A stretch of DNA of 24,106 bases from a virus, in IMG/VR virus record IMGVR_UViG_3300045051_000623, positions 1-24,106 of that record. One strand, given 5' to 3'. The position numbers were made by a program, and so were the translations under genes. Positions within the stretch are counted from its first letter, which is position 1. The number at the start of each line of letters is the position of its first letter. The notes under the pieces were generated by a model, which was given only the letters and a program-made list of their open reading frames with translations, ran no database searches and was not told where the DNA came from. This document shows, one piece after another, positions 2,749 to 20,229 of this stretch.

Positions 2749-4827
2749 ATGCCGATGATCAAGGTACAGGCCCGCGGCAATGCGGCGGCCGACGTCGAGA
2801 TCTACGCACCGATCGGCGAAAACTGGTACGGCGATGGTCTGACCGCAAAGCGCTTCCGAGACGACCTGAAGGCGCTCGGCAACGTCACCGACATCACGGT
2901 GCGGATCAACTCGCCGGGCGGCGAGGTGTTCGACGGCTTCAGCATCTACAACGCGCTGAAGGAACACCCGGCCAAGGTGACCGTCTACATCGACGGCCTC
3001 GCGGCCTCGATCGCCAGCGTGATCGCGATGGCCGGCGACACGGTCTACATGGGCGAGGGTGCCATGTTCATGGTGCACAGCCCGTGGACGATCTCGATGG
3101 GCGACGCCGACGACATGCGTCAGACCGCCGACATGCTCGACAAGATCAGCGTCGGCCTGGTCGATGCGTACGTGGCGGGCACCGGCCAGGATCGCGGCGT
3201 CGTCGAGGGCTGGATGCAGGGCGAGACCTGGTTCACGCGCGACGAGGCGATCGCCGCCGGTCTGGCGGACGGCCCGTCGGTGGCCAGCGCACCCGCCGCC
3301 CTGACGGATCGGCAGGCCCTCGCTCGCGAGCGCTTCCAGGCCTTTGCGTCGCATCTCAGCTTTGCCGCGGCGCTGAAGGCGTCGCAGCCGTCCGATGTTT
3401 CGAAGTCCCCGCAGGAGACTGCGGATCCCCCTCTGTCGGCATCCGCCGATGCACTCTCCACTGAGGAGCTTTCCATGCCCAATGCCAATGCGTCGGCGCC
3501 CAACGCAGCCGATACCCTTTCCCGCGAACAGGTGCTCGCCGCCGAGGCCGGTCGCCGGGAGACCATCCGCACCCAGTTCGGCCGGTTCTCGGCCGAGCAC
3601 CGCGGCCTGCTCGATGCCTGCCTCGACGACATGAACTGCACGCCGGAGAAGGCCTCGCAGCTGCTGCTCGCCAAGCTCGGCGAGGGCGTCGAGCCGGCCC
3701 GCCCGGCGGCGCACGTCACCGCCGGCGTCGACAGCCGCGACAAGTTCATCGCGGGCGTCGCCAACGCCATCATGGCCCGCCGCGGCATCGAGAAGATCGA
3801 GGCCGGCAACGAGTTCGCCGGTGCCGGCCTGCAGCGCATCTGCCGCGCCGTGCTGGCCCGCGCCGGCGTCGCCCACGTCGATCGCCTCGAGGGCGCCGCA
3901 CTCGCCTCGAAGGTCTTCGGCACGATGACCTCGAGCGACTTCCCCCTGCTGCTCAGCAACACCGCCAACAAAGCCCTGCGTGCCTCGTACGAGGCGGCCC
4001 CGAGCACCTGGCAGCAGTGGGCGAAGAAGGGCGAGGTCTCGGACTTCAAGTCCAACAGCCGCCTGCAGGTCGGCAGCTTCAACTCGCTGGCCGTCATCCC
4101 CGAGGGCAGCGAGTACAAGGCCGCCAGCCACAGCGAGGAGGCCGAGACGATCCAGGCCCAGACCAAGGGCCGGTTCATCTCGCTGACGCGGCAGATGATC
4201 ATCAACGACGACCTCGGCGCGTTCGTCGACCGCGCCTCGCGTCTCGGCTTCGCGGCCCGTCGCACCGTCAACGAGGACGTCTACGCCAAGCTCGCGGCCA
4301 ATCCGACCATGTCGGACACCGGCGCGCTGTTCAACTCGACGGCCGTCACGACGGCGGGCGGTCACGCCAACCTGGCTGGCTCCGGCGCGGCCATTTCGGT
4401 GGCCACGATCGCGACGGGCGAGGCGGCGATCGCGGTGCAGAAGGACAAGGACCTGCGCACGACGCTGAACCTGTCGCCGCGGTTCATCCTGGTGCCGCGC
4501 GGCAAGCGCGTGGTGGCCTGGGAGGTGCTGAACTCCCCGACCGACGTCTCCTCGTCGAACTCGAACAAGCGCAACTACGCGGCCTCGCTGGCGCTCGAGA
4601 TCATCTCGGACGCGGAGCTCGACAAGGCCTCGGCGACGGCCTGGTATCTGGCCTCCGACCCGATGGTGGCGCCGCTGATCGAGTGCGCGTTCCTCAACGG
4701 TCAGGACACGCCGTACACCGAGGAAGACGTCGACTTCATGACCGACGCGGTGCTGCTGAAGGCGCGGCTCGACTACGGCGTTGCGGCCATGGACTGGCGC
4801 GGCGCGTGGAAGAACCCGGGCGCCTGA
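2749..4827 (+). CDS. ClpP-type prohead protease / major capsid protein fusion
   Basis: A 692-aa protein preceded by a good ribosome binding site (AAGGAG). Residues 1-195 form a ClpP/S14-type serine protease. It has the oxyanion-side INSPGGEVFDGF motif (53-64), the nucleophile Ser87 in GLAASIAS, and the likely catalytic His110 in MFMVHSP. Residues about 196-325 are a variable linker plus a helical segment (LSREQVLAAEAGRR) like that seen after phage ClpP-type proteases, where it acts as scaffold. Residues about 325-692 form an HK97-fold-type major capsid protein ending WRGAWKNPGA. Fused protease/capsid genes are known in some siphophages. The protease would mature the prohead and the capsid part would build the shell. 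An in-frame ATG at 3475 with its own ribosome binding site may make a separate 450-aa scaffold-capsid product. Confidence 0.9.
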   Translation: MPMIKVQARGNAAADVEIYAPIGENWYGDGLTAKRFRDDLKALGNVTDITVRINSPGGEVFDGFSIYNALKEHPAKVTVYIDGLAASIASVIAMAGDTVYMGEGAMFMVHSPWTISMGDADDMRQTADMLDKISVGLVDAYVAGTGQDRGVVEGWMQGETWFTRDEAIAAGLADGPSVASAPAALTDRQALARERFQAFASHLSFAAALKASQPSDVSKSPQETADPPLSASADALSTEELSMPNANASAPNAADTLSREQVLAAEAGRRETIRTQFGRFSAEHRGLLDACLDDMNCTPEKASQLLLAKLGEGVEPARPAAHVTAGVDSRDKFIAGVANAIMARRGIEKIEAGNEFAGAGLQRICRAVLARAGVAHVDRLEGAALASKVFGTMTSSDFPLLLSNTANKALRASYEAAPSTWQQWAKKGEVSDFKSNSRLQVGSFNSLAVIPEGSEYKAASHSEEAETIQAQTKGRFISLTRQMIINDDLGAFVDRASRLGFAARRTVNEDVYAKLAANPTMSDTGALFNSTAVTTAGGHANLAGSGAAISVATIATGEAAIAVQKDKDLRTTLNLSPRFILVPRGKRVVAWEVLNSPTDVSSSNSNKRNYAASLALEIISDAELDKASATAWYLASDPMVAPLIECAFLNGQDTPYTEEDVDFMTDAVLLKARLDYGVAAMDWRGAWKNPGA
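3463..3477 (+). promoter_or_regulatory. Internal ribosome binding site and in-frame ATG for the capsid part
   Basis: GAGGAG at 3463-3468 lies six bases upstream of ATG 3475-3477, in the frame of the protease/capsid gene. The codons after it (MPNANASAPN) look like a protein N-terminus and fall at the junction between the protease and the scaffold/capsid part. Initiation here would give a 450-aa protein. It resembles the true start of the gene, where AAGGAG also precedes ATGCC. The arrangement parallels lambda C/Nu3, in which an internal start yields the scaffold. Use of the site is inferred. Confidence 0.55.
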
Positions 4828-5323: not shown

Positions 5324-5866
5324 ATGAGCCGCCAGACCGAGATCGCGAAATACTCGACGGCCTACGTGCACTCGTCCTACCGGATGGGGCAGGCCCGCTA
5401 CACGGCGGCGCTGCGCGATTTGACCGGCCTGCAGGGCTCGCTGCTCGACGTGGGCTGCGGCCGCGGCGAGGTACTGCGGCTGGCGCTGGACATGGGAATG
5501 CATCCCGTGTCCGGCACCGAGGTCGTACCGTCGCTCCTCGGCCCCGGCGTGGTGTATGCCGAGGCCCACCAGCTGCCGTTCCCGGATGGCAGCGTCGACC
5601 ACGTGACCTGCTTCGACGTGCTCGAGCACCTGGTGCGCGAGGACACGGAGATCGCGCTGCTCGAGCTCGCGCGCGTGGCGCGAAAGACCGTCACCGTGAC
5701 GGTCGCGGACTATCCGCACGTTTTCCAGGGCGTCGACCTGCACGTGAACCGACGCCCGTACCCTGAGTGGCAGCGGCTGCTCGAGAGCTTGTTCGCGCAC
5801 CTGTTGCGCCCGCTGGGCCCCGCCGGCGCGTCGCAGGCCTGGCGGATCCAATTGCCGGGAGCGTAA
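5324..5866 (+). CDS. Class I SAM-dependent methyltransferase
   Basis: A 180-aa protein of the Methyltransf_11 type. The SAM-binding motif I is LDVGCGRGE (residues 41-49). An acidic residue ending the second strand (Glu66) should contact the SAM ribose. The post-motif region QLPFPDGSVDHVTCFDVLEHL (83-103) is the usual substrate-side signature of small-molecule methyltransferases. No target-recognition domain or DNA-methylase NPPY motif is present, so DNA methylation for restriction evasion is unlikely. The substrate is unknown; a sugar or other small molecule is plausible. Its stop overlaps the start of the DUF115-like gene (TAATG), which argues for a shared job. It interrupts the head-to-tail gene order and may be an accessory (moron-like) gene, though its base use matches its neighbours. 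Confidence 0.85.
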   Translation: MSRQTEIAKYSTAYVHSSYRMGQARYTAALRDLTGLQGSLLDVGCGRGEVLRLALDMGMHPVSGTEVVPSLLGPGVVYAEAHQLPFPDGSVDHVTCFDVLEHLVREDTEIALLELARVARKTVTVTVADYPHVFQGVDLHVNRRPYPEWQRLLESLFAHLLRPLGPAGASQAWRIQLPGA

Positions 5867-6582
5867 TGCGCACGGTGCGCGACCTGCTGCTCAAGCATGC
5901 AGGGGCCACCGTGGCGGTGCTCGGCGGCGGGCCGAGCCTGCCCGAGCAGGCGCAACGGCTGCCACCCGGCACGCTGTGCCTGAGCGCGAACCAGCACGGC
6001 TGTCGGCTGCGGGCCTGCGACTACATCGTGGCGCTCGATCACATCGAGACGACGCTGCGGCCCTACGGCGTGCCGATCGTGGCGCCGCACGCCTGGGCGG
6101 ACTACCGCATGACCGAGCACCCGCAGATGCCCTACAGCGGCATGCAGGCGGCGTGGGTGGCTTGGATGCTCGGTGCGAGGGCGATCCTGCTCGCCGGGAT
6201 GGACTGCTACGCGGACCCGCGGGGCATCTACTTCCACGGCGAGGGGTCGAGCCCCGGGCAGTTCCGGCCCGCGTTCGTGCACGAGCGCGGCTGGCAGCGG
6301 GTCCAGACCTGCGTGCCGCTACCCATTCGAACCATGGGCGGGCCGCTGGTTGAGATGTTCGGCGAGTACGACCCGGCGGAAGTTCTGCCGCCGTACACGC
6401 CGCCGGAACGCTTTCGACTGCTCGCCGAATGCGCGGGCACCCGGGTGGACATCCTGCGCGATCACACGCGCGGCAAGTACCACCGATACCTGCAGGGCCA
6501 GGTGCTCGAGCTGCCGCACGCGGAGGCTCAGGCGCTGATCGCCAAGCGCATCGCCCGCCGACACATCGAGGCCGAGACGTGA
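5866..6582 (+). CDS. DUF115/MptE-like Rossmann-fold protein
   Basis: A 238-aa protein; ATG 5866 is chosen because it overlaps the methyltransferase stop. Upstream in-frame codons to 5767 overlap that gene and are unlikely to be used. Features are a Gly-rich loop GGGPSL (residues 20-25) after a beta strand, DYIVALDHI (52-60), SGMQAAWVAWMLGA (91-104) and ILLAGMDCY (107-115). These match the DUF115 fold shared by MptE-type pterin diphosphokinases and by Maf flagellin-glycosylation proteins. Substrate and reaction are unknown. Paired with a methyltransferase in a structural operon, it could take part in modifying a virion or host-surface glycan, but that is inference. The next gene starts inside its last codons (GTGA overlap). 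Confidence 0.65.
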   Translation: MRTVRDLLLKHAGATVAVLGGGPSLPEQAQRLPPGTLCLSANQHGCRLRACDYIVALDHIETTLRPYGVPIVAPHAWADYRMTEHPQMPYSGMQAAWVAWMLGARAILLAGMDCYADPRGIYFHGEGSSPGQFRPAFVHERGWQRVQTCVPLPIRTMGGPLVEMFGEYDPAEVLPPYTPPERFRLLAECAGTRVDILRDHTRGKYHRYLQGQVLELPHAEAQALIAKRIARRHIEAET

Positions 6583-11300: not shown

Positions 11301-12209
11301 ATGACCACCTCCTACGGCACCGCCACTGACCATGACGACCTCTTCGAGCGGCTGCGCACGTTTCTGACGACGGGGATCGGCACGGGCGAGAACTGGACGG
11401 AGCTCGACTACAACACCGCCGACCGCTCGGTGCTGTTCGAGGCGCCGGGCCTCTCTGGCACGGAGGAAATCCACGTCGGCCTGCAGCTGTATGAGAGCGT
11501 CGACACCGACACGTTCGGCTTCTATGGCTGGATGTTCCGGGCGTACGACTCGGGGCTGGCGCACACGCTGCAGCCCGGCGCTTCAGCAACGAGATTCCAT
11601 CCGACCTTCGACGCGGCCATCCCGTACTGGTTCTTCGCGAACGCGCAGCGGGTGATCGTCGTGACGAAGATCTCGACCGTCTACACGGCGAGCTACCTCG
11701 GCAAGTTCCTGCAGTACGGCACGCCCGGTGAGTATGGCCAGCCCTATTACGTGGGCATGCCTTACAGCGGCGCGCTGCGCTTCTCGTCCGAGCGCCACGA
11801 CTTCCGCAACTTCTGGGACCCGGGCGACGGCGCGCAGATCCTGCTGCCGAGCGGCTCGTGGTCAACTTGCCGCAACCACGACGAGTCCACCAGCGCCGAG
11901 TCGCCCGCGACGTCGGGCAATTTCATCCACCCCTATCACGATCGGTCAGGAACTTCCGCCAACGAGGTGCGCAGCCGCTGGCGCGAGCTGCGCGACAACG
12001 TCGACGGCAGTTACACACGGTTCCCACTGATGCTCACGGGAAACACGCCCGAAGCGAACATCTATGGCGAACTGGATGGGGCGTACGCGATCAGCGGGTT
12101 CAGCACGGTGAGTGAGGACGACCTGACCATCGGCGGCGACTCGTACCTGATCTTCCAGGACTGCTACCGCACCGCGCGCTGGAACTATGCCGCGCTCCTC
12201 GAGGCCTGA
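11301..12209 (+). CDS. Tail-associated protein, paralogue A
   Basis: A 302-aa protein with no recognised domain, rich in Tyr, Trp and Phe, as many virion surface proteins are. It shares positions with the next gene: YDSGLA followed three residues later by QPG, an I-S-x-x-Y segment leading to L-G-x-x-x-x-Y-G, and a C-terminal L-x-IGGD motif. The two are therefore tandem paralogues of similar length (302 and 301 aa). The place after the tape measure and before the gpL- and gpJ-like genes puts it at the tail tip or on tail decorations. Function is unknown; adhesion or tip assembly are possible roles. Confidence 0.75.
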   Translation: MTTSYGTATDHDDLFERLRTFLTTGIGTGENWTELDYNTADRSVLFEAPGLSGTEEIHVGLQLYESVDTDTFGFYGWMFRAYDSGLAHTLQPGASATRFHPTFDAAIPYWFFANAQRVIVVTKISTVYTASYLGKFLQYGTPGEYGQPYYVGMPYSGALRFSSERHDFRNFWDPGDGAQILLPSGSWSTCRNHDESTSAESPATSGNFIHPYHDRSGTSANEVRSRWRELRDNVDGSYTRFPLMLTGNTPEANIYGELDGAYAISGFSTVSEDDLTIGGDSYLIFQDCYRTARWNYAALLEA

Positions 12210-12212
12210 CGC

Positions 12213-13118
12213 ATGCCATATCAAACCGGTGCGGCCTCGGATCCCGCCGACCTGCTGGCCGATCTCGGCACCTTTGCCGCGGCCAACGGCTGGACCGTCA
12301 GCAGTCCCACCAGCGGCAAAGTGTTCTCGAAGGGATCGGCGTTCTGCGGCGTCGTCGCCGACGCCGACTCACTCGACTCGCGCGGCTGCATTTCGTACGA
12401 CTCCGGGCTGGCGTGGAATGCACAGCCTGGGCACTCCGGCGTTACCCATTCCTGCAATCTGGGGGCGGGGCCGTTCACGGCGTATCACTTCTATGCCGAG
12501 TCGGAGGAGTCCAAGAGCTTCCTGGGCGCGGTGGTGGAGATTTCGGCCGGCGTCTACCGCCACTGGGTGCTGGGCGACCTGATCAAGTACGGCGCCTGGA
12601 CGGGAGGCACCTACAGCGACAGCGTGTTCCATGACACGACCTCGGACGATGCGAATCGCACGACGAGCGCTAATCACCGCTACCTGGCCGACACGATCTA
12701 CGGCGGCACCGCTCGCGGGCAGTTCTACTGCAACGTCGATGGGTTGACCGACAACTGGGTGAAGATCGCCGCCAGCAGCGACATCGCCTCTGCTTCGTCG
12801 TTCGGCACCGGCTGCGTGAGGGGTGACGGCAAATGGATCGGGGCGATCGGGTCTCAGTACCAGAAGTGGAACCTGCGCACGCCGCTCTTCCCGCTCGAGC
12901 TGTTCGTCAACCGCCCGTCGTCACTGCGGTCAATCGTCGGTCGCGTTCCGGCGCTGCGCCACGTGAGCCTGCGCAACTACATGCCCGGCGAGATACTGTC
13001 GATCGGGGGCGATGACTGGCAACTCTGGCCGGTCGTGGCGCGCACGGATACCTCCGGCTCGAGTTCGTCCACCACGCCCAGTTCCGGCTACTACGGCTAC
13101 GCCTACCTGCGCACGTGA
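12213..13118 (+). CDS. Tail-associated protein, paralogue B
   Basis: A 301-aa protein with GAGG ahead of its ATG, three bases after paralogue A. It begins YQTGAASDPADLLADLGTF, comparable to YGTATDHDDLFERLRTF in paralogue A, and shares YDSGLA, the central VEISAGVYRHWVLGDLIKYG region and LSIGGD near the C-terminus. The tail end is Ser/Thr/Tyr-rich (SSSSTTPSSGYYGYAYLRT). Similar lengths and several co-linear matches indicate duplication followed by strong divergence. The next gene starts in its stop (GTGA overlap). It is probably a tail-tip or peripheral tail component; function is not known. Confidence 0.75.
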   Translation: MPYQTGAASDPADLLADLGTFAAANGWTVSSPTSGKVFSKGSAFCGVVADADSLDSRGCISYDSGLAWNAQPGHSGVTHSCNLGAGPFTAYHFYAESEESKSFLGAVVEISAGVYRHWVLGDLIKYGAWTGGTYSDSVFHDTTSDDANRTTSANHRYLADTIYGGTARGQFYCNVDGLTDNWVKIAASSDIASASSFGTGCVRGDGKWIGAIGSQYQKWNLRTPLFPLELFVNRPSSLRSIVGRVPALRHVSLRNYMPGEILSIGGDDWQLWPVVARTDTSGSSSSTTPSSGYYGYAYLRT

Positions 13119-14806: not shown

Positions 14807-15623
14807 TACCTTCGAACAGAGCGAGCAGGACGCCGCGCCGATCGAGCTCTACGAGTTCACGGCCGGGGTCAACGTGCTGCGCTTCACTTCCTGGCACCGC
14901 GACTACCTGTACCAGGGGGCGACCACGTTCACCACGGCGTCGATCCGCCGGTCGGCCATCGAGGACTCGCCCGAGCTTTCTCGCGCGCCGCTCGACCTCA
15001 CTGTGGCCCGGGACTTCCCCATCGCCGAGCTGTTCCGGGTGGCGCCGCCCTCGTACGTCGTGCGGCTCTCCGTGTTCAGGATCCACGCCGGCGACACCGA
15101 GCGGGCCTTGATCTGGTCCGGTCGTGTCATCGATCGCACCGTCGAGGGGTCGATCGCCGCGACGCTGCATTGCGAACCGGTGATGACCGGCATCAAGCGG
15201 CTGGGCCTGACGCGCAGTTATCAGCGCGCGTGCCCGCATGCGCTGTACAGCGAAGGGCCGGGTCGCTGCAACGTCAGCCGGGCGGCGTTCTCGGTCAGTG
15301 CAAACCTGTCATCCGTGGCTGGTGTGTTCGTCAATTCGTTCACCTTCGCCTTGCAGCCCGACGGCTATTACGCCGGCGGCGACCTCGAATGGGACGCCGG
15401 TTCGGGTCGGATCGAGTACCGCGGCATTCGCAGCCACGTCGGCACCGAGATCGAGCTCACTCACCCGATCGCCGACCTGGCCGCGCTCGACACGGTGGTT
15501 GTGGCGGCCGGCTGCAGCCACGAGATTACGGTCTGCGATTCGAAGTTCGGCAACTCAGCCAATTACGGCGGGTTTCCCAACGTACCGCAGAAGAACCCCT
15601 ACGGCGGCGGGAGCGTTTTCTAA
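14796..15623 (+). CDS. gpL-like tail tip assembly protein (BR0599/DUF2163-type) with probable Fe-S cysteines
   Basis: A 275-aa protein. The N-terminal half (ELYEFTAG, LRFTSWHRDYLYQG, TASIRRSAIEDSPELSR) is typical of the phage BR0599/DUF2163 family. The C-terminal half carries four cysteines in the family arrangement: Cys146 (RACPH), Cys158 (GRCNVS), Cys240 (AAGCSHE) and Cys247 (TVCDSKFGN), followed by NYGGFPNVPQKNP. In lambda gpL four Cys bind a [4Fe-4S] cluster, and its last pair is also seven residues apart. It likely helps form the tail tip complex with the gpJ-like protein encoded next (TAATG overlap). No NlpC/P60 gpK-like gene follows, unlike lambda. Confidence 0.85.
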   Translation: MSIDTFEQSEQDAAPIELYEFTAGVNVLRFTSWHRDYLYQGATTFTTASIRRSAIEDSPELSRAPLDLTVARDFPIAELFRVAPPSYVVRLSVFRIHAGDTERALIWSGRVIDRTVEGSIAATLHCEPVMTGIKRLGLTRSYQRACPHALYSEGPGRCNVSRAAFSVSANLSSVAGVFVNSFTFALQPDGYYAGGDLEWDAGSGRIEYRGIRSHVGTEIELTHPIADLAALDTVVVAAGCSHEITVCDSKFGNSANYGGFPNVPQKNPYGGGSVF

Positions 15624-17659
15624 TGGTCTGGCCCGTGTGGGTCGTTCAGGCGGTGCTGTTCGTCGCCACCACGATCATATCGATCGCGCTCGCGCCGAAG
15701 CCGCGAAACGCCAAGGCGGCCTCCCTTGACGATTTCAAGGCGCCGACGGCAGAGGAGGGTCGGCCGATCCCCGTGGTGTTCGGCAAGGTCATGATCACCG
15801 GCCCGAACGTCGTCTGGTACGGCGACCTCGACAAGAAGGCGATACGCAAGAGCTCCTTCGGGCAGAGCCAGGTCGTGGGGTTCAAATACTACCTTGGCCT
15901 GCACTACGTCATCTCGTTCGGCCCGATCGACGAATTCCTGCGCTGGGACTGGGACGAAAAGACGGCATGGTCTGGCAGCCTCACCGCCTCGGCCACCCAG
16001 TCGATCAACCAGAAAAAGCTGTTCGGCGGCGGGAAGGGCGAGGGCGGCCTGATCGGCGATTTCGACGTGATGATGGGCGATTCGTCCCAGACGCCCAACA
16101 CGTACCTGCTGGCGCAGATCGGTGCGCCGTTGTCGGCGCACCGTGGCGTCGTCTCGGTGGTGTGGAAAGGCGGCTACGTCGGCAAAAGCCAGTACCTGAA
16201 GCCGGTACAGTTTCTCGTGCGACGCACCGCCGCGGGGTGGGAGCAGGGCGCCGCCTGGAACGCGGCGGATGTCACCGTCGATGAGGGCATGAACCCCGCG
16301 CACATCGTTTACGAAGTGCTGACGAATTCGGTCTTTGGCTACGGCGAGCCGACGGCCTCGATCGATGAAACCAGCTTCGGTGCCGCGGCCGACCTGTTCG
16401 TATCCGAGACCTTCGGCCTGAACCTGCAGTGGGTGCAGTCGTCGGAGATCGGCGACTTCCTCGGCGAAGTTTGCTCGCACGCCGGCATGGTGCTCGGCGA
16501 GGATCCGACCACCGGCAAGTACACGCTCACGCCGCTGCGCAACGACTACGTCGCCGAGGACCTCGACCTCATCGATGAGGACTCGGTCATTGAGTTGATC
16601 CGCTACTCGCGGCCGGGGTGGGGCGAGACGGTCAACGAGATCACCTTGGTCTATACGGACCCGGTCTCGTACAAGCCGACCGCCGTCACCGTGCACGACC
16701 TCGGCAACATCCGCGCGCAGGGACGGGTGATCTCCCAGACGATCAAGTACCCAGGCATCCGCAACCACGACGTGGCGAAGACCGTGGCTGCGCGCGAGCT
16801 CGTGCAGCGCTCGACCCCGCTGGGGCGTGGCACCTTGCGCTGCAGCCGGCGCACCTGGCGGCACCAGCAGGGCAAGGTCGTGCGCTTCTCCTGGGAGAAG
16901 GAAGGCCTCGTCGACATCCCTCACCGCGTCATGGCGATCCGCAAGGGCACGCTCGAGGACGGCTCCATCGAGATCGACCTGGCCAAGGACGTGTTCGGCG
17001 TTTCGACCGCGACCTACGTGGCGCCCACCGGCATCGACGACGTGCCGGCACAGCCTCCCGATCCGGATGAACCCGGCTCCGCAGGTGCGAGTGTCCTGTC
17101 GACGACGACCACCGCGCCGCCCGGCTCGCCTGCCGATGGCGATTCGTACTACGTTCCAACCGGGGCGACCGGACTGTGGGCAGGTCATGCCGGCGAGATC
17201 GCAACGTGGGACGCGGACGAAGGCGAGTGGATCTTCGAGGCCATCGTCGGCACGCCGATCGTCTCTGTCGTTGACGATGACGCTTTTCGGGTCCTGAACG
17301 GCGACGGCACGACGAGCGCCGGCCCGTGGCCGGATGCCGGTATCCCGCAGAACGCGCAGACCGGCAATTACGGCATCGTCCTGGCTGACAACGGTCGACA
17401 CATTCATCACGCCAGCGGCGCCGGCGCCGGCGATGTCTACACCATCCCTGCGAACGCCAGTCTGGCCCTGCCGATCGGCTTCACGGTGACCATCACGAAT
17501 CTGGCGGCCGACCCAGTCCAGATTGCGATCACGACCGACACGCTTTACTGGTCGCCAACCGGCGCCACTGGCACCCGCACGCTCGCGCAGTACGGCATCG
17601 CGACGGCGATCAAGGTGACGTCGACCGGGTGGATGATCGGCGGGGTGGGGCTTTCGTGA
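15623..17659 (+). CDS. gpJ-like central tail tip protein with C-terminal fibre-like modules
   Basis: A 678-aa protein; ATG 15623 overlaps the stop of the gpL-like gene, and the open frame further upstream lies inside that gene. A hydrophobic N-terminus (about residues 6-24) precedes the tip-protein pattern GRPIPVVFGKVMITGPNVVWYGD. The middle has the hub-like segment GWGETVNEITLVYTDP and a region ending near residue 475. Residues about 493-550 (TTTAPPGSPADGDSY, then GLWAGHAGEIATWD) resemble DUF2793. Residues about 575-678 (NYGIVLADNGRHIHHASG, YTIPANASLALPIGFTVTI) resemble tail-fibre C-terminal domains. It should form the tail tip and carry receptor contacts. It is shorter than lambda gpJ (over 1,100 aa). 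Confidence 0.85.
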   Translation: MVWPVWVVQAVLFVATTIISIALAPKPRNAKAASLDDFKAPTAEEGRPIPVVFGKVMITGPNVVWYGDLDKKAIRKSSFGQSQVVGFKYYLGLHYVISFGPIDEFLRWDWDEKTAWSGSLTASATQSINQKKLFGGGKGEGGLIGDFDVMMGDSSQTPNTYLLAQIGAPLSAHRGVVSVVWKGGYVGKSQYLKPVQFLVRRTAAGWEQGAAWNAADVTVDEGMNPAHIVYEVLTNSVFGYGEPTASIDETSFGAAADLFVSETFGLNLQWVQSSEIGDFLGEVCSHAGMVLGEDPTTGKYTLTPLRNDYVAEDLDLIDEDSVIELIRYSRPGWGETVNEITLVYTDPVSYKPTAVTVHDLGNIRAQGRVISQTIKYPGIRNHDVAKTVAARELVQRSTPLGRGTLRCSRRTWRHQQGKVVRFSWEKEGLVDIPHRVMAIRKGTLEDGSIEIDLAKDVFGVSTATYVAPTGIDDVPAQPPDPDEPGSAGASVLSTTTTAPPGSPADGDSYYVPTGATGLWAGHAGEIATWDADEGEWIFEAIVGTPIVSVVDDDAFRVLNGDGTTSAGPWPDAGIPQNAQTGNYGIVLADNGRHIHHASGAGAGDVYTIPANASLALPIGFTVTITNLAADPVQIAITTDTLYWSPTGATGTRTLAQYGIATAIKVTSTGWMIGGVGLS

Positions 17660-18531
17660 CGATCATCCAGGCGATGTTCGCGATCCTTGGAGGTAGCGCG
17701 GGCCTCAACGCTGAAATCTTCGTCGACGGCGAGTCCGGCACCTGGCTGAAGCCGGTCGGGTGCCTGTGGGTCGAAGTGATTGCAATTGGCCCGGGTGGCG
17801 GCGGCGGTTCGGGCGCGTTGGCGGCTGCAGGCGTAGCCGCATCGGGCGGGGGCGCGGGCGGTTCCGGCGGCTTTTCGTACGCTGTTCTTGATGGCGACTC
17901 GCTGCCGTCGAGCGTCGCAGTGCAGGCAGGCGCTGGCGGCACCGGCGGCGGCTCGCGCGTTGCGGGATCTGGCCAGGGAGATGGCACGGCGGGCGGCGCC
18001 GGCACACCAAGTTACTTCGGATCTTTCTGCGAAGCGAAGCCCGGCGCCGGCGGCGTTGCGGGTCGTATCACAGCGGGCACGGCCGCCGGCGGCGCCGCAG
18101 GGTCAGGAGCGCGGCAGAGCGGTCTCGCCGGCGGCAACGCCAGCACCACGGCGAATGGCGTCGCAGGAACAGCGAGCACGCAGTACGGCGTCGGCACGGG
18201 AGCTGGCGGCGGGGGCGGCGGCTGCACGCTCGGCAATACTGAGCTCTACGGTGGTGCTGGCAGCGCATTCACCAACCTGAGCGGACTGACACCGGCGCCG
18301 GCCACAACCACGTCAGGCCAGGCCGGTACGGCGGGCGACTCGTTTGCGGGGTTCGGCGGCGGGGGCTCCGGCGGCGCCGGCAACCTCACCGGCAACGGCG
18401 GAAATGGCGGCGCCGGCGGTTCCTACGGTGGCGGTGGCGGTGGTGGCGGCGGGGCGCGCACTGGGAACAACAGCGGCACGGGTGGCGCCGGCGGCGGCGG
18501 CTTCGTGCTGATCATCTCTCACATGCCCTGA
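17656..18531 (+). CDS. Glycine-rich tail adhesin-like protein 1
   Basis: A 291-aa protein from GTG 17656, which overlaps the gpJ-like stop; an in-frame ATG at 17629 would lie within the previous gene. After a short N-terminus comes GTWLKPVGCLWVEVIAIGPG, then long Gly-rich runs with GGX and GGXGG patterns. It closes with GGGGFVLIISHMP. This matches the phage glycine-rich domain type, in which a small beta head is followed by Gly-rich strands, possibly polyglycine-II-like as in gp38-type fibre tips. It is the first of three tandem paralogues and is probably receptor-binding or fibre-associated. Evidence is pattern and position. Confidence 0.75.
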   Translation: MTIIQAMFAILGGSAGLNAEIFVDGESGTWLKPVGCLWVEVIAIGPGGGGGSGALAAAGVAASGGGAGGSGGFSYAVLDGDSLPSSVAVQAGAGGTGGGSRVAGSGQGDGTAGGAGTPSYFGSFCEAKPGAGGVAGRITAGTAAGGAAGSGARQSGLAGGNASTTANGVAGTASTQYGVGTGAGGGGGGCTLGNTELYGGAGSAFTNLSGLTPAPATTTSGQAGTAGDSFAGFGGGGSGGAGNLTGNGGNGGAGGSYGGGGGGGGGARTGNNSGTGGAGGGGFVLIISHMP

Positions 18532-18535
18532 GCCC

Positions 18536-19378
18536 ATGGCAACCGACGTACAGCGCTTCACAAGCTCGGGCACGTGGATCAAGCCCGCCAACTGCCGACT
18601 GGTCAAGGTTTACGTCGGAGGTCCTGGCGGCGGCGGTGGCTCGGGCGCGCTGAGCAACACGGGCGTGGGCGTGGGCGGCGGTGGCGGCGGCGAAGGCGGC
18701 GGGCGGTCGATCGGATTCTTCAGCGGATCGCTGCTGCCGAGCTCGGTGTCAGTCACCGTCGGCGCGGGCGGCGCCGGCGGCGCTGGAGTGGTGTACGCGG
18801 GTGCAAACATCGCCGGCCTCGCCGGCGCGTCAGGGTCGGGGCCCTCAAGCTTTGGCGACTATGTCGTAGCGGCGGCCGGGACAGGTGGAGGTGCCGGACA
18901 GATCGGCGGTTCATCGACTGTCGTGGGAACGTCCGGTGCCGGAAACCTCGTCAATGGCGTTGCCGGAACGCGCGGCGGGGTCAGCGCGGTTCAGGATTCG
19001 GCGGCAGACACGTGGGCCACTCCCAACTACGGCGGCGGTGGCGGCCGCGGCCAATCGATCGGAAATTCCGGCCGCGCCGGCGGCGGGTCCGGAAGCAACG
19101 CGACAAAGTCGCTCGGTTCCTACTTCAACGCGGCGGTGGCCGGTGGTGCTGGCGTCGACGGTTACACGTACGGCGGGCTCGCGGCCGTGGGCGGCACCGG
19201 CGGTGGCCACGGAGGCACCGGATCGCCGAGCGTACGTCACTCCGGCGGTCATGGAGCCATTGGCGGCAGCGGTGGCGGCGGCGGGTCCGGGGCTTACGGC
19301 ACGACCGGAGTGACCTCTGGCGCTGGCGGCGACGGCGGAGATGGTCTCGTCGTTGTCGTGTCTTACGTGGACGCCTGA
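18536..19378 (+). CDS. Glycine-rich tail adhesin-like protein 2
   Basis: A 280-aa protein starting four bases after the previous stop. It has the same architecture as its neighbours: GTWIKPANCRLVKVYVGGPG near the N-terminus, a Gly-rich core with a shared segment LLPSSVSVTVGAGGAGGAG (LPSSVAVQAGAGGTGGG in protein 1), and a C-terminus GGDGLVVVVSYVDA. The middle differs from its paralogues (for example DTWATPNYGGGGGRGQSIG), as expected if loops between Gly-rich strands vary for receptor choice. No other domain is seen. Whether all three are in the virion at once is unknown. Confidence 0.75.
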   Translation: MATDVQRFTSSGTWIKPANCRLVKVYVGGPGGGGGSGALSNTGVGVGGGGGGEGGGRSIGFFSGSLLPSSVSVTVGAGGAGGAGVVYAGANIAGLAGASGSGPSSFGDYVVAAAGTGGGAGQIGGSSTVVGTSGAGNLVNGVAGTRGGVSAVQDSAADTWATPNYGGGGGRGQSIGNSGRAGGGSGSNATKSLGSYFNAAVAGGAGVDGYTYGGLAAVGGTGGGHGGTGSPSVRHSGGHGAIGGSGGGGGSGAYGTTGVTSGAGGDGGDGLVVVVSYVDA

Positions 19379-19380
19379 GC

Positions 19381-20229
19381 ATGGCAAACACGCAAGTCGA
19401 CATCATTGATGCCAGCGACACCTGGTCGCCCCCGGTCGGCGCTGTCTGGTGCGAAGTCATCGCTGTGGGCGGTGGTGGTGGTGGTGCCAGCGGGTGCATA
19501 CCGACAACGACGGCCGGCTCGGGCGGGACGGCCGGTGCCGGCGCCGGCGGCAGTTTCGAGGCGATAGATCCCGCGGCCATTCTTTCGTCGCTGAGCGCGA
19601 CCGTCGGCAGCGGCGGTAGCGGTGGCGCGTCCCAGACATCCGCCGGCAGCGGCGGGCTCAATGGTTCAGCCGGCGGTGCGAGCACGCTCGGCGGGATCAC
19701 CGGCGCGCCAGGCGGCGCGGGTGGTGTCGGTGGGCGCGTCAACGGTACGCCGATCGGTTCAACTGTCGGCGGGGCGGGAACGTGGACAACGGGCGCCAGC
19801 GCTACCCATCAACCCAGTGGCGCCACGGGTAGCAGCAACGATTCAGCCAACGTCTCGGGCATGGCGGCCGCGCAGCCGGCTGGCGGCGGTGGCGGCGGCG
19901 TGCAAGCCACAGCAAGCATTGTGCGAAACGGCGGCAACGGCGGCAGCTTTACGCTGCTGACGAACCCCATCGCCGGCGGCGCCGGCGGCACGGCCCACGG
20001 CGCGAACGGTGCCGGAGGCGTGGAAAACAATGCCGCGCAGGGTGCGGGCGGTGGCGGCGGCGCGGCTGACAACACGTCCTCGACGTTCGTCGGTGGCAGC
20101 GGCGGCAGTGGTGCGCGACCTGGCGCCGGCGGGGGCGGTGGCGGCTCAACTCACGATGGCACTGGCAATGCGTCTGGCGCGGGCGGCGCGGGCGGTGGCG
20201 GTCGCCTCATCATCGTTTCGTACTTCTAG
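19381..20229 (+). CDS. Glycine-rich tail adhesin-like protein 3
   Basis: A 282-aa protein with ATG 19381, two bases after the previous stop. The longer open frame from 18574 is a shadow of the preceding gene. It begins ANTQVDIIDASDTWSPPVGA and continues WCEVIAVGGGGGGASG, then the shared LSSLSATVGSGGSGGA and long GGX runs, ending GGGGRLIIVSYF. It is closer to protein 1 than protein 2 in the WVEVIAIG/WCEVIAVG segment. A 46-base gap follows before the lysis genes, marking the end of the tail module. Confidence 0.75.
   Translation: MANTQVDIIDASDTWSPPVGAVWCEVIAVGGGGGGASGCIPTTTAGSGGTAGAGAGGSFEAIDPAAILSSLSATVGSGGSGGASQTSAGSGGLNGSAGGASTLGGITGAPGGAGGVGGRVNGTPIGSTVGGAGTWTTGASATHQPSGATGSSNDSANVSGMAAAQPAGGGGGGVQATASIVRNGGNGGSFTLLTNPIAGGAGGTAHGANGAGGVENNAAQGAGGGGGAADNTSSTFVGGSGGSGARPGAGGGGGGSTHDGTGNASGAGGAGGGGRLIIVSYF

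Follow-up and report, generated by a model that had tools for sequence, protein, structure and literature searches.

Why should a siphophage carry three related, glycine-rich genes in a row at the end of its tail block? The question is raised by g1, g2, and g3, which lie back-to-back downstream of the tail hub gene in the IMG/VR virus record IMGVR_UViG_3300045051_000623. The entire record, a linear stretch of 24,106 bases that may be a fragment, was analysed and is called the window below. It holds a siphophage late module with genes for a protease-capsid fusion, head decoration, major tail protein, tape measure, tail tip, lysis, and integrase. We infer with high confidence that g1, g2, and g3 encode tail-tip adhesins, which would be present in the virion and bind a receptor, and they are possibly the subunits of one mixed trimer docked on the hub through g1.

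A preliminary description of the window had reported three tandem genes of 291, 280, and 282 amino acids, and both the coordinates and the lengths were correct (Table 1). The GTG start codon of g1 overlaps the stop codon of the hub gene (GTGA), and g2 and g3 begin 4 and 2 nucleotides past the preceding stop; with such gaps, the three proteins are probably made together. The motifs from which relatedness had been proposed were also recovered in the order g1, g2, g3. The TW-x-x-P start reads TWLKP, TWIKP, and TWSPP, with the W at residues 30, 14, and 15; the V-x-V-x-x-GGGGG core reads VEVIAIGPGGGGG, VKVYVGGPGGGGG, and CEVIAVGGGGGG, with a C replacing the first V in g3; the L-S-S-V-type segment reads LPSSVAV, LPSSVSV, and LSSLSA; and a hydrophobic final C-terminal strand is present in all three proteins. 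Smith-Waterman scores among the three were 486, 472, and 393 against shuffle means of approximately 209-221 (z 12.5 to 17.8, 300 shuffles each). Since these scores also exceeded those of 10-residue block shuffles (z 10.6 to 12.5, 300 shuffles each), g1, g2, and g3 are true paralogues, beyond shared composition. Outside the shared Gly-Gly columns, identity was 32-35% in the predicted strands and 14-20% in the remainder, and therefore the statement that the Gly-rich interiors differ between the copies holds.

As judged from the model of g1 and from sequence profiles, the three proteins belong to a known kind, the tumour necrosis factor (TNF)-like poly-glycine brush adhesins. The AlphaFold2 (AF2) model of g1 (predicted local distance difference test, pLDDT, 85.6; predicted template modelling score, pTM, 0.84) was closest to the 'tail wing brush' gp33 of phage Bxb1 (VIA Z 22.1, 2.3 A across 210 residues, 32% identity), followed by the fibre protein gp24 of cyanophage Pam3 (VIA Z 15.7); the other entries below these two had Z of 8.3 or less. 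Profile A3, an alignment of 42 members from the window and from viral loci, matched chain Qa of PDB entry 9d93, which is Bxb1 gp33, at E 4.6e-12; of gp29 and gp33, the two Bxb1 proteins tested, it matched gp33 only. The family PF21722 (Gly_rich_2) was matched by g3 with 34.2 bits, above the curated cut-off of 24.3, and by g1 and g2 with 16.4 and 16.0 bits, under that cut-off though spanning nearly the whole family model. The family name is claimed here for g3 only; 39 of the 42 A3 members matched PF21722 at E 0.01 or better. The motifs listed above map on or beside the sandwich strands and the first glycine run of the g1 model, and the brush is the interior between them. BLAST of the brush proteins against named phages returned nothing or a single match at E 2, as expected given the low-complexity filter.

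How such an adhesin might be attached to the tail was suggested by the end of the hub, a connector domain of approximately 105 amino acids. Its AF2 model (pLDDT 90.6) was similar to the Pa223 capsid spike (VIA Z 12.4), KP1 (11.6), CBA120 TSP4 (9.6), T4 gp9 (8.8), and T4 gp10 (8.7), with Z dropping to 7.9 and 4.0 in lower rows. The connector is thus predicted to have a gp9/gp10-like fold, as in the connector-type domains of phage fibres and spikes; when solved structures were searched with a sequence profile of the connector there was no match, and the matches came from the fold comparison. The connector alignment (A2) has 20 rows and a mean column identity of 75%. In viral contigs this 'IPQNAQTGNY' connector is abundant (the best 80 of 342 confirmed stretches) and nearly always gene-terminal: the gene stops within 2 residues of the connector in 112 of 114 instances, counted over partly redundant loci with the window included. 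The open reading frame (ORF) that follows usually opens with a short MSGALQAVF-like peptide (MSGALQAVFQNQRSF), the plug, and continues into a variable or exchangeable domain, which is often glycine-rich.

A position matrix of the plug was built from 54 distinct 9-mers, after exclusion of 4 of 81 next-ORF starts that were not plug-like or were wrongly started (those of loci L066, L110, and L044, and one of L021). Among the 1404 possible starts in the window, the start of g1 scored highest (8.3, a score reached by 289 of 20000 shuffles), whereas g2 and g3 scored -7.8 and -8.6. Residues 3-12 of g1 are predicted to form a helix, with a mean pLDDT of 58 over the first ten residues. From the first possible start to the conserved W there are at least 25 residues in 90 brush proteins, except g2 of the window, which has 13; the spacing in g3, read from its own frame because a longer frame masks it in the 90-protein set, is 14. 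The first-ranked plug score of g1, together with the negative scores and short N-termini of g2 and g3, suggests that g1 is the docked member and that g2 and g3 are bare heads. Docking of g1 through its plug and the connector appears probable, with gene order pointing to a putative binding between connector and tip. A host was sought in 398 genomes belonging to the same phylum as the Magnetococcales genome of L044, and none was identified; 60 of the 398 matched part of the hub, mostly the DUF2793 linker only, and 9 matched the connector.

The connector and the brush genes form a cassette. In locus L004, the tape measure, four more tail genes, and the hub up to residue 570 are 73-76% identical to those of the window, and in L005 and L006 the identity is 52-72% up to hub residue 575. 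Past residue 570-575 similarity ceases: the L004 hub has 1158 amino acids and the L005 and L006 hubs have 1399, with a different C-terminal part, and no brush genes follow the hub of these three in the stretch examined. The same kind of tail thus bears either a fused fibre or a connector and brush set. On sequence comparison, this is a cassette swap, in which the closest phages carry a long fused fibre where the window has the connector and the brush genes.

To place the set of three among its relatives, brush genes were collected from viral contigs by DNA motif and by connector loci. Members were called by the A3 profile, and neighbours were joined across gaps of up to 350 nucleotides. The motif scans yielded at least 119-120 stretches each, and this sampling favours multi-copy over single-copy contigs. 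Arrays at least 90% identical to another were dropped (228 to 175), as were those with a flank under 700 nucleotides (175 to 112). Among the matches listed, the 112 complete tight sets comprised 79 single, 9 double, and 24 triple sets and none larger, and 12 further triples with a short flank were seen, again with none larger. In the two scans without a single target clade, the counts were 61, 5, 12, and 0 for sets of one, two, three, and four or more genes. The maximum was still three at a gap limit of 1.5 kb, and a single four-gene set (L063) emerged when the limit was raised to 3 kb. The median intergenic gap inside triples was 3 nucleotides, by a crude measure. Single-copy relatives include L179, L132, and L137 as well as the Rhodobacter phages RcBaka and RcSwan, where a lone brush gene of 296 amino acids (A3 147 and 144 bits) lies between the gene for an upstream protein and those for holin and endolysin. 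Upstream proteins of that kind also precede 18 of the 35 other triples (e.g. L163, L242, L338, and L441); they have approximately 140 amino acids and an 'NTxPIY' start, often with a gene of approximately 60 amino acids nearby, and possibly represent another type of dock.

The order of the genes within triples was assessed in a tree of 108 members from 36 triples. First, second, and third members formed separate clades within several groups, for example in ten arrays with supports of 95, 100, and 93. The nearest relative from another array held the same position for 84 of the 108 members, compared with a mean of 35.9 and a maximum of 55 when order was shuffled (2000 shuffles). One triplication in a common ancestor, with positions fixed thereafter, was rejected, the placing of all first members in one clade having an approximately unbiased (AU) test p of 2e-66 on a quick tree. 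Since the first members are not one clade, triples appear to have formed more than once or to have been homogenised, and once formed they mostly retain their order. Members clustered by array in L230, L192, L447, L456, and, less firmly, in the window. The members of the L192 triple seem to begin with a signal-peptide-like hydrophobic stretch, which is odd for a tail protein.

From these observations, we propose that g1, g2, and g3 encode the host-binding tip of the siphophage tail. Each protein would be a small TNF-like beta-sandwich with glycine-rich loops projecting as a packed 'brush', and contact with the host surface would be made by the tips of these loops, where the copies differ. A 10-residue N-terminal helix would anchor g1 to the connector ending the hub. 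g2 and g3, without such an anchor, would be translated directly behind g1 and held by it through the beta-sandwich in a mixed trimer, so that a single asymmetric tip would present three distinct binding faces. Connector and brush genes constitute a cassette at the place occupied by a fused fibre in the closest relatives. The solved members of the family are trimers, and from a mixed trimer a ceiling at three and a fixed order would be expected; the two features may reflect selection for such a 1:1:1 tip. Moreover, g2 and g3, without a plug, would need g1 to reach the tail, which also points to a mixed trimer. We regard this three-gene explanation as a whole (plug-docked g1, mixed trimer, and cassette) as evenly balanced, and the 1:1:1 trimer of g1, g2, and g3 as at best so. 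Only tentatively do we extend it to the family, in which brush adhesins would have been triplicated repeatedly into obligate 1:1:1 heterotrimeric tips with fixed roles and order, and the window's set would be an independent instance, with the docking peptide retained by the first subunit alone. The heteromeric fibre end suggested in the preliminary description gains indirect support from the ceiling at three and the conserved order in relatives.

Several observations weigh against the mixed trimer. In the W-V-A-P sub-family, tight sets among the matches listed numbered 100 single, 3 double, and 0 triple (duplicates kept), and with gaps to 1.5 kb the counts were 69, 9, and 4, with none above three and no excess at three. 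Motif sampling is biased toward contigs with several copies. Array mates could also resemble one another through gene conversion, without separate triplications. In the 90-row tree, g3 is placed with the single-copy L132 and L137, apart from g1 and g2, which group with the single-copy L179 (support 84-89); on these placements the window's set is probably its own separate triple. The fold prediction covers g1 alone, as a single protein. A heterotrimer would, furthermore, give only one plug to a presumably trimeric connector. Finally, all three members share a common N-terminal peptide in 17 of 36 triples and two of three do so in 7, by a loose pattern, and so these triples could equally be three homotrimers using one kind of site.

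Phage fibres are usually described as homotrimers. The main rival to the mixed trimer is three separate homotrimeric adhesins for different receptors, shown together or drawn at random, whose copies would widen or secure attachment. The shared N-terminal peptide fits it, and so do the predominance of single-gene sets (79 of 112) and the one brush gene of the cultured RcBaka and RcSwan behind the upstream protein kind of many triples. However, separate homotrimers leave the ceiling at three and the strict order unexplained, and in the window g2 and g3 have no visible anchor; we consider this reading a substantial but rather doubtful one. It is unlikely that g1 alone is the working tip, with g2 and g3 as partly redundant leftovers of duplication or as non-virion helpers. 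The plug on g1 only would agree with this, as would the 90-row tree, where both g1/g2 and g3 have single-copy genes as their nearest relatives, but g2 and g3 are intact and full length, with diverged loops and better conserved strands, and triples are retained in order in other lineages.

The preliminary description had also suggested that the adhesin set may be switchable and that its repeated DNA may recombine to change host range. Loops do differ between the copies, and the whole tip cassette varies between related phages. However, the longest exact DNA matches among g1-g3 were 15, 14, and 19 nucleotides, against maxima of 14, 15, and 17 in codon shuffles (20 shuffles each). Repeats of this length are too short for easy recombination, and recombination through repeated DNA was rejected on these matches of 14-19 nucleotides. 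Inverted repeats had imperfect, GC-rich arms only, and tandem repeats were short low-score runs. No promoter-like site was found between g1, g2, and g3, and neither an invertase nor a reverse transcriptase was found among the scanned proteins of the window, itself a linear record and possibly a fragment; the only recombinase seen was the integrase. A switchable or recombining store of adhesins, changing host range by recombination or inversion, is thus very unlikely. Of the earlier proposal, the tail-tip adhesin is supported by fold, sequence profile, gene position, and docking plug; switching is not supported.

Known systems share parts of this arrangement. Bxb1 gp33 (PDB 9D93, an entry with three gp33 chains) has the fold of the g1 model over the aligned 210 residues, the A3 profile match, and a place toward the end of the tail operon, close to the gene for the integrase; it differs in that the homologous part starts at residue 38, in an unlike N-terminal part, and in its mycobacterial host. 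Pam3 gp24 (PDB 7YPX) has the TNF-like sandwich and glycine-rich loops; it is a trimer and a proposed receptor-recognition tip (PMC9608196), but it comes from a lone gene, has a long helical bundle at its N-terminus, and is served by a chaperone of its own, gp25 (PMC9608196). The T-even gp38 of S16 and PP01 is likewise a small separate tip protein docked on the fibre end, with a poly-glycine II lattice and variable distal loops, but it is a monomer with a beta-helix rather than a TNF-like base and a three-helix attachment domain (PMC6851490, PMC12892980), compared with one short helix in the g1 model. S16 gp38 (6F45) was absent from the Foldseek and VIA listings for g1, which excludes nothing. 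The variable loop ends are regarded as receptor sites in Pam3, S16 gp38, and PP01 gp38 (PMC9608196, PMC6851490, PMC12892980), and a glycine-rich adhesin was described as the key determinant of host range in haloarchaeal viruses (PMC8651126).

Poly-glycine brushes also occur on the central tip of the siphophage hubs of LSH1 and Mysterious; Mysterious has two adjacent brush proteins, gp31 and gp32, whereas in LSH1 the brush domain is at the C-terminus of the hub, and the excerpts of these papers describe no set of three (PMC13243795, PMC13252515). In the virophage DSLV2, the products of three consecutive tail genes co-purify as a 1:1:1 heterotrimer, an experimental precedent in another fold; these products have a gp37-like fold and sit, according to the authors, on the virophage capsid (PMC12724248). 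In the literature searched, no account of phages with triple brush arrays was found, the primary papers on mycobacteriophage brush domains being outside its coverage, and absence from print is not claimed. What the present analysis adds to the known brush-adhesin kind is the connector and plug anatomy and the copy-number pattern.

If the mixed trimer is real, a tip built from three distinct paralogues could engage three surface features simultaneously, and escape of the host by altering one receptor would become harder. The recurring set of three is a countable, searchable signature, and the pair of connector and plug maps the location of tip adhesins in uncultured phages, behind the 'IPQNAQTGNY' domain. 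The distribution of poly-glycine domains among phages was called an interesting problem in a 2026 paper (PMC13243795), and the copy counts given here are a first answer for one collection.

Table 1. Positions of the brush genes and of the hub, its domains, and the plug in the window
Feature	Position	Strand	Remarks
g1, putative brush adhesin with docking plug	17656..18531	+	291 aa (amino acids), GTG start; AF2 pLDDT 85.6, pTM 0.84
g2, putative brush adhesin without plug	18536..19378	+	280 aa; paralogue of g1; phrog_863 E 4.2e-13; plug score -7.8
g3, putative brush adhesin without plug	19381..20229	+	282 aa; PF21722 34.2 bits; plug score -8.6
Tail hub / central-fibre protein (tail part, DUF2793 linker, C-terminal connector)	15620..17659	+	679 aa; phrog_1101 E 1.9e-162, PF13550, PF10983
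DUF2793 linker, hub residues 490-561	17087..17302	+	PF10983 E 8.5e-14
Connector domain, hub residues 575-679, proposed dock for tip adhesin	17342..17656	+	Alignment A2, AF2, VIA
N-terminal plug helix of g1 (MTIIQAMFAILG), predicted	17656..17691	+	Plug matrix and predicted helix

Elsewhere in the window, positions 2749-4827 are a single ORF of 692 amino acids fusing a Clp-type protease to the major capsid protein. The two ORFs upstream of the capsid gene (1-1887, which may run off the record, and 1889-2452) had zero Pfam or PHROG matches. Within the head-tail gene block, a methyltransferase-like gene (5324-5866; PF08241, E 7.3e-14) stands beside an ORF of 271 amino acids (5767-6582), which had no Pfam match and a weak match to a sialyltransferase PHROG (E 0.0068); as a guess, the pair might modify a sugar of the virion or of the host surface. 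In addition, the tail block contains a further pair of tandem paralogues, the adjacent genes at 11301-12209 and 12213-13118, both of which matched phrog_687 (structural protein), and this pair is also retained in L004-L006.

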